Shown here: piece after piece, positions 46,420 through 48,686 of the stretch | Position numbering within the stretch: the first letter of the stretch is position 1 | Layout: the number at the start of each line of letters is the position of its first letter | Assembly (NCBI GenBank): GCA_949295675.1 | Contig: CASFMA010000052.1 | Span: forward strand, 1 to 48,686 | DNA from: an uncultured Spirochaetales bacterium | GTDB taxonomy: Bacteria; Spirochaetota; Spirochaetia; Sphaerochaetales; Sphaerochaetaceae | DNA length: 48,686 bases | Direction of reading: 5' to 3' | Position numbers and translations under genes: made by a program | The notes under the pieces: model-generated | Told to the model about the DNA's origin: nothing | The model's database searches: none | Seen by the model: only the letters and a program-made list of their open reading frames with translations

Positions 46420-46454
46420 TTGTGCACTACCCTCCTGCATGATAGAATTAGCTC
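46420..46454 (+). promoter_or_regulatory. Leaderless promoter of the phase-variable lipoprotein gene
   Basis: TTGTGC (46420-46425), 17-base spacer, TAGAAT (46443-46448), then TAGCTC and the ATG at 46455. It has the same -10 box and spacing as the neighbouring gene at 45586. Confidence 0.6.
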
Positions 46455-48006
46455 ATGAAAAGACTGAAGCTTAACTCTATAGCACACAACGCTTTGTACC
46501 GGTGGGGGGGGGGTATTTGCAACCATACTCTTGCTCCTGTTCGCCTGCTCAAATGATCAGCCTGTGATGCACACTGTCACATTCAGCCTTGATGGTGGAC
46601 ACTTCCTGGATGGAACAGAAGAGTCTATCACCGTAAAAGATGAAAGCACTGTCAAAAGGCCATCAGATCCAGAAAAGGAGTCCTGCAAATTCATTAACTG
46701 GTACAGCGATGAAGATGGCACATCGCTTTTTGATTTCGACACGCCCATCACGCAGGACACAACAATATATGCGAAATGGGAAAGCGAACCAATAAACAAC
46801 ACCAGATATTTCACAATCACATATAGCTATTCTGGTACAGGAACTCCAACAGGCATACCTGAGAATCCACGGAGTGTTGCAGAAGGCTCCAAACCGACAA
46901 GACCTTCGGATCCTGTACTTACGGAAAACGGCAAGACATATGTATTCGAAGGCTGGTACGAGACAGGATCTGATGAACCATTCGATTTCGAACAGCCAAT
47001 CACTGGCAGCAAGACACTTGAGGCAAAATGGAGCAAGTCATATTACGACGATAATGGATACACAGTCTACGATGTGGTGGGACTTAAAGCCTGGAACACT
47101 GCAGTAGCATCAAAATCGAGTTTGGACTGTACTCTTGCGGAGAATATCACTCTTCCACCTGTAAATGACGGCGAAAGCAACTGGGATCCCGTAAAGAACT
47201 ATTCAGGCACTTTCGATGGCAACAACAAGACGATAAGCGGAATGAAAATCACAGGAGAAGCCAAGATAAGTACAGGCTTAATTTCAAACCTGGAATCTGA
47301 CGGTACTGTGAAGAATCTGGGACTGATTGATGTTTATATCGATATCTCGAGTGATATTAGTATTGCAGCTGGGGCTATTGCTGGGATCAGTAGAGGCCCT
47401 GAAAACGGTACAACAATCACCAACTGCTATTCCACGGGAACAATATCTGTTACGGTAGAAGGCCAAAAAGATGCCCATGCTGGCGGTATCATCGGACATA
47501 ATTACATTAGTAACATAACAGCATGCTATTCCTCTGGAACAATAAATGCTGCAAGTGAGGGCGGTGTTTTTGCTGGCGGCATCACCGGACAGAATGATAG
47601 TGCTGATGCTAAAATCACAGCATGTTATTTCACGGGCAGTGTATCTGCAGGGACACAAGGAAATGGAGGTTATGTTTATGCTGGCGGTATAGCCGGAGAG
47701 ACTCGAGATGGAAGTACTATCACAGCATGTTACTCCACAGGAAGCATATCTTCTTATAGTACAGATACAGCTTATGCTGGTGGCATCTGTGGGGAATCAA
47801 GCAGCACTGTAAATACTTGTTACTGGTCATCAAGCGGTGGAACCGCTACAAAAGGAATAGATGAGGGAACAGATAATACCTTAAAAGTAGAAAATGATGA
47901 TTGGTTAACTGCAATGAATAATATGAATACTAAACTCAACGAAGTTGGGGCTACGTATAAATATACTAATGGCAATTCTGACAGACCTCTTATCATTACA
48001 ACCTAA
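46455..48006 (+). pseudogene. Phase-variable surface lipoprotein, out of frame as sequenced
   Basis: From ATG 46455 the frame reads MKRLKLNSIAHNALYRW, enters a run of ten G, and stops at 46554-46556. With nine G the same ATG joins the long frame and gives about 516 residues with a perfect lipoprotein signal peptide (VFATILLLLFAC lipobox). Then come two InlB-type (Listeria-Bacteroides) repeats, each ending in an AKW motif (about residues 40-110 and 115-195), and about six GLUG-type units (GGIxG...ITACYSTGSIS). These domains are typical of surface adhesins. The gene is judged OFF here rather than dead. A TTG at 46531 could allow weak start, but without the full signal. Confidence 0.8.
46504..46513 (+). 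repeat. Ten-G homopolymer tract
   Basis: Ten consecutive G (46504-46513) lie in codons 17-20 of the lipoprotein gene, before the hydrophobic core of the signal peptide. Slipped-strand errors in such tracts switch genes on and off in other bacteria. It is by far the longest single-base run seen in the window. Confidence 0.95.
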
Positions 48007-48502: not shown

Positions 48503-48686
48503 CCAGGAAAGCCTCCAGCGCCTCATACGCCCTGTAGCTGTCCTCACGGGTTATCACAAAGGTAAGGACATTCATGGTGGAGACTATCTCTATTATGTTT
48601 ATGTTCTCCCATGCAAGCTTCCTTATTGCCAGATACAGTATGCCAGGGGTCTGCAGGAAATCCCCATGGAAGACAATGGTGAGGGC
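48489..48686 (-). CDS. ACT-domain protein, C-terminal part (runs off the window)
   Basis: The last 65 codons of a minus-strand gene whose start is beyond the window end. TPGILYLAIRKLAWENINII then EIVSTMNVLTFVITREDSYRAYEAL matches an ACT ligand-binding domain as found in the regulatory region of aspartokinases or standalone ACT proteins. The stop TAG is at 48489-48491. The upstream domain cannot be seen, so the enzyme is not assigned. Confidence 0.7.
   Translation of the reverse strand, partial: ALTIVFHGDFLQTPGILYLAIRKLAWENINIIEIVSTMNVLTFVITREDSYRAYEALEAFLDEEL

Follow-up and report, generated by a model that had tools for sequence, protein, structure and literature searches.

A poly-G tract interrupting the signal peptide of an InlB/GLUG-repeat lipoprotein, very probably belonging to a set of phase switches spread across its genus, in an uncultured lineage of Sphaerochaetaceae

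The window analyzed here, a stretch of 48,686 nucleotides, is contig C52 of a 1.77-Mb assembly of an uncultured Spirochaetales bacterium (130 contigs, 78% complete). Neither FlaA nor ribosomal protein L14, the latter missing from the assembly, was informative for its placement. Towards its end the window carries an envelope-lipoprotein gene that is very probably phase-variable (a contingency gene) and belongs to a set of poly-G switches found throughout the genus. A run of 10 G interrupts the gene within its signal-peptide codons, and comparison with related genomes suggests that it is very probably one of many random on/off switches of surface proteins in this genus. The window assembly has captured the OFF phase of the gene.

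Results

The G tract and its reading frames

A probable sigma70-type promoter is located at positions 46,420 to 46,448 of the forward strand, consisting of the -35-like TTGTGC, a 17-nt spacer and the -10 box TAGAAT (46,443 to 46,448), the latter 6 nt before the ATG at 46,455. This ATG and the n-region of the signal peptide (MKRLKLNSIAHNALYR..., 46,455 to 46,503, forward strand) are translated ahead of the tract. The orthologue of the sister genome G050 (locus L212) has a promoter of the form TTGTGA-17-TAGAAT, also 6 nt before its ATG, with 77% DNA identity to the window across the ATG and n-region stretch and residues matching as MKRLKLNSI.HN.L before the tract. The sequence-only reading had argued that a leaderless promoter directly upstream marks the ATG at 46,455 as the intended start, and this putative start is supported because the -10 box, its spacing and the ATG are all conserved in the orthologue. 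Regarding a promoter-spacer tract of the porA/tp0126 type, no TTGAC was found just upstream of the G10 run in the window.

The tract itself (46,504 to 46,513, forward strand) comprises exactly 10 G as assembled and is directly followed by TA (46,514 to 46,515). It begins 49 nt inside the open reading frame, with 46 nt from the ATG to the tract, and occupies codons 17 to 20 of about 516, i.e., it is a long homopolymer in the 5' part of the frame. With 10 G, the frame of the ATG at 46,455 reads MKRLKLNSIAHNALYRWGGGICNHTLAPVRLLK and then stops, giving 33 codons. Translation with 7 to 13 G revealed that the long frame is reached only with 9 or 12 G, one length in three, while lengths of 7, 8, 10, 11 and 13 G lead to a stop after 32 to 37 codons. 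On the 3' side of the tract the frame stays open until the stop codon at 48,004 to 48,006, and no other lesion is present. No non-ATG internal start was found upstream in the assembled frame within the window.

The encoded lipoprotein

The hydrophobic core and the lipobox (VFATILLLLFAC, 46,514 to 46,545, forward strand), with the lipidation cysteine at the end, can be read only with 9 or 12 G. These in-frame lengths read ...YRWGGVFATILLLLFACSNDQ..., in which the lipobox is LFAC, and the complete 9-G phase (MKRLKLNSIAHNALYRWGGVFATILLLLFAC) shows the basic n-region, hydrophobic core and cysteine-bearing lipobox of a predicted lipoprotein. Downstream on the same strand, two InlB B-repeat-like domains (List_Bact_rpt, PF09479; 46,570 to 47,040) are recognized in two stretches by Pfam (E 5e-21, 74.9 bits, cut-off 27), as well as in a structural model and through a Foldseek match to the InlB B-repeat 2y5p. 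They are followed by a GLUG-repeat beta-helix (PF07581; 47,041 to 47,830, forward strand; E 7e-10, 39 bits, cut-off 20.5; fold match 3n6z) and by a C-terminal part including the stop codon (47,831 to 48,006, forward strand), in which homologues share an invariant W..A...MN motif.

The AlphaFold model (mean pLDDT 86) consists of small beta domains and then a beta-helix, and its best Foldseek matches are the Bacteroides GLUG protein 3n6z, non-catalytic parts of IgA1 protease entries and the InlB B-repeat. No catalytic domain was recognized. A scan against a collection of genome contigs that may lack near records gave remote repeat-protein matches only. These findings bear out what had been read from the sequence alone, namely a 10-G run just before the signal-peptide core, an ATG frame ending after 33 codons, and a 9-G version in which a lipoprotein signal peptide is fused to InlB-type and GLUG repeats; the last point agrees with both the frames and Pfam, and position, frame and domain type had been described correctly. 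The protein would presumably be lipidated and displayed on the surface. It may have an adhesive or antigenic role, "adhesin" being a term drawn from domain architecture alone.

Tract lengths compared with chance

An order-1 Markov model predicts 0.031 G- or C-runs of at least 10 in the window, and models of order 2 to 3 predict about 0.001 for G and 0.005 to 0.01 for C. Apart from the tract, G runs in the window stay below 6. The assembly as a whole contains 7 runs of at least 8, and because every one of them has at least 9, the long runs do not simply continue a smoothly falling distribution. G-run counts in the sampled loci fall from 1473 (G4) through 217 and 17 to 2 (G7) and go up again from nine on, in loci that were picked for their long tracts and that also supplied the background rates; the genome-wide statistics combine pattern searches with sampled stretches. 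In a dinucleotide shuffle for G8, 3 overlapping matches stood against a mean of 1.04, a weakly significant result, with 13 of 100 shuffles reaching 3. The number of tracts was also considered as evidence and discarded, per-genome counts not being above the naive first-order expectation. The weight of the argument lies in the position of the tracts and in the gap in run lengths.

A genus-wide set of tracts

Tracts of G9 or longer were present in all 48 genus genomes searched, with up to 21 per genome and a median of 11, compared with a median of 2 for the family's other genera. In the sampled genus loci 175 distinct tracts were read, and two classes are of relevance here. In class 1 (75/175) the tract is a promoter spacer between TTGAC and TAnnnT, the layout being TTGAC, a short stretch, G9-G12, TAnnnT, a short leader and ATG; the commonest -35/-10 spacing is 19 nt. 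These tracts are mostly upstream of lipoprotein genes whose products begin in the form MKK...LFAFTAC, and they may constitute a large phase-variation set of the promoter type. Examples of TTGACA-N9/10-G9-12-TAGNNT were seen in loci L100, L108, L127 and L129, with the tract at about position 2002 of the oriented locus (76 in L129), and, in the window's own genome, at C5:179 (L006) and C30:27128 (L007).

In class 2, to which the window gene belongs, about 20 tracts sit in the reading frame of a lipoprotein signal peptide, either within it or shortly behind it. An automatic test for this arrangement returned 22/175 tracts in sense versus 3/175 in antisense orientation (Fisher p 9e-5) and versus 57/4000 random sites (binomial p about 1e-14); two of the 22 sense matches proved to be promoter-type tracts with a chance ATG and were removed, leaving 20. 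Searching siblings and paralogues for G runs at the same place had been suggested as a check, and it yielded about 20 lipoprotein genes of sister species with G9-G12 tracts in sense orientation. The encoded proteins carry InlB repeats, GLUG, Big_2 or BspA-type LRR domains. As assembled, 10 of the 20 tracts are in frame and 10 are one base off, an ON/OFF ratio that is by itself no proof of switching; it is the length difference between orthologues and the positional enrichment that carry the argument. Contig C31 of the window's own genome carries a further class 2 gene, whose G12 tract is in frame (ON): MYIRVRKKIAGILHRGGGVALICILIAGC. Loss of mismatch repair was ruled out as a driver, and switching rates are not raised in this way, because MutS is present in 47 of the 48 genus genomes.

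Some further tracts were noted in other settings. Locus L112 (G018:C4, 26,699 to 26,708) has a G9 tract, in frame, in a type I restriction specificity gene (HsdS, Methylase_S), whose DNA specificity is likely phase-variable. In locus L114 (G018:C27, 17,291) the frame of a type ISP restriction-modification enzyme (ResIII, Helicase_C, ISP_coupler) contains a G10 tract, which is one base off relative to the upstream part of that frame. In the window's own genome, a C11 and a G9 tract on opposite strands lie 35 bases apart (L003/L004, C41:311-365) upstream of a 254-codon open frame, possibly as a divergent pair of switched promoters. Lastly, L065 and L174 are lipoprotein genes with poly-C (proline codons) on the coding strand in or near the signal-peptide region, rare mirror-image cases.

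TA at the 3' edge of the tracts

The dinucleotide TA directly follows 78% of the 175 tracts versus 6-7% of G3-G5 runs. Across 17 genus genomes it was found after 126/176 tracts, the mirror control (AT before the tract) giving 18/176. The corresponding figures were 190/345 in the tallied tract-bearing genomes of probable Treponemataceae and 35/608 in seven other tract-rich genomes. The TA of class 1 tracts forms the beginning of the -10 box; among the coding tracts of class 2 it still occurs in 16/20, where we see no coding reason for it. A single DNA-level system, with Gn-TA tracts set into promoter spacers or into the codons of signal peptides, could switch a large part of the lipoproteins of the genus, a tentative proposal that we regard as rather unlikely. 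If it were true, the TA edge of the coding tracts would mean that they were seeded from a common element or that some factor recognizes Gn-TA, as opposed to an independent origin gene by gene.

Comparison with orthologues

The window and G050 share the order mfd, inositol phosphatase, lipoprotein, and the orthologue keeps the -10 box, the ATG, the codons before the tract and a G9 tract at the same place. The orthologue is also out of frame and in the same phase, its tract being 1 G shorter and the preceding codons 2 bases shorter; the two assembled copies of this locus differ in tract length (G10 versus G9) and are equal in phase owing to this compensating change. The ON phase was seen in neither of them. 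The G050 copy contains an internal ATG (MFCAWGG...), possibly opening an in-frame short signal peptide, which the window does not have. After the tract, the frames of the two copies share 56% amino-acid identity, with dN 0.37 and dS 0.88. A dN/dS below 1 behind a tract that is assembled out of frame in both copies suggests that the lipoprotein is used, probably by part of the cells or for part of the time. A difference in phase was observed in another pair of genus genomes, where an InlB-repeat lipoprotein gene with the same signal peptide and 80-89% DNA identity carries G9 in frame (ON) in G002 versus G10 out of frame (OFF) in G017.

The shared out-of-frame phase of window and orthologue is also what one would expect of a decaying pseudogene, in which a frameshift became fixed in a lost gene. 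We consider this extremely improbable, given that 491 codons are open, dN/dS is below 1, promoter and start are conserved, and the only disruption falls exactly in a hypermutable tract. Alternatively, the G10 frame could be expressed through transcriptional or ribosomal slippage, yielding a minority of full-length protein with no heritable switch. Such a mechanism would fit two orthologues in the same out-of-frame phase with a constrained downstream frame, but promoter-spacer tracts of equal length (75/175) cannot act via ribosomal slippage, whereas slippage at the DNA level accounts for both tract classes; moreover, in-frame cases exist among the other signal-peptide tracts, and tract length varies between orthologues. 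This explanation is thus very improbable in our view.

A second version of the gene raises the question of assembly quality. The last 140 bases of the window (48,547 to 48,686) are identical to a stretch of contig C106 (L209, 1-1984), which begins within a version of the lipoprotein gene with 85% identity, the 5' end and the tract lying outside the assembled part. Its downstream neighbours are the same as in the window (an NTPase-like protein, an ACT-domain protein, then NrdR), and C52/C106 bears the marks of an assembly branch, either the allele of a second strain or a tandem copy. This diverged version with its identical end points to population or tandem complexity in a metagenome assembly of 130 contigs, and on these grounds the tenth G could be an assembly or sequencing error in a gene that truly has 9 G and is constitutively on. 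Yet an out-of-frame tract occurs at the same place in the orthologue, which comes from a different assembly, and the two phases are about equally frequent across the 20 signal-peptide tracts. Furthermore, a constitutive gene would have no need for GGG, which makes up 17% of glycine codons here, at a matching position of many lipoproteins that are unrelated to each other. An error is therefore quite improbable, and a contingency gene remains the preferred reading.

Discussion

As a phase-variable gene, the locus may work as follows. The promoter 6 nt before the ATG at 46,455 probably yields a leaderless message, and the tract sits within the signal-peptide codons, where it separates the basic n-region from the hydrophobic core. 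Through slipped-strand mispairing at replication the tract would gain or lose about one G; with one length in three (9, 12) the start would be in frame with the lipidated InlB-repeat/GLUG protein, and the remaining lengths would terminate translation within about 37 codons. Slippage within the population and expression of the lipoprotein are both presumed here from the sequence. Across the genus, most members of the set would be switched through promoter spacers and a minority, including the window gene, through the signal-peptide frame. These observations suggest that much of the lipoprotein surface of this uncultured lineage is phase-variable. Standard gene callers would either place the start of the window gene at a spurious TTG within the signal peptide or report a pseudogene, so annotations of surface proteins in such organisms are likely to be wrong.

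The kind of switch is itself known, while poly-G phase variation has apparently gone unreported for this lineage; no paper tying Sphaerochaeta to phase variation was found in the literature collection searched. The closest parallel in the reading frame is found in Neisseria, where hpuA has a poly-G tract in the open reading frame of a lipoprotein and one length in three is ON (PMC3786947). The window gene resembles hpuA and hmbR in this respect, HpuA being a lipoprotein as well, but these are unrelated haemoglobin receptors, and here the tract interrupts signal-peptide codons and the protein is an InlB/GLUG-repeat lipoprotein of an uncultured lineage. In Helicobacter pylori, oipA carries a slippage repeat in its signal-peptide codons and is switched ON and OFF by frameshift (PMC10564699). 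This location, of the sabA/hopZ type, is the same as in the window; however, oipA has a CT dinucleotide repeat and encodes an outer-membrane protein, in contrast to the poly-G tract and lipoprotein described here.

With regard to the protein, the two N-terminal domains and the beta-helix are similar in sequence and fold to the B-repeats of Listeria InlB and to GLUG surface proteins. The likeness to internalins and proteases is confined to repeat scaffolds, and neither an LRR internalin domain nor a protease domain was found. Finally, in T. pallidum tp0126 and Neisseria porA a poly-G tract sets the -35/-10 spacing (PMC7864442). The class 1 tracts of the genus are placed like those of Treponema pallidum tp0126 and tprE/G/J/L and of porA, between -35 and -10, whereas the window tract lies in the coding frame and most of the controlled genes in this genus encode lipoproteins.
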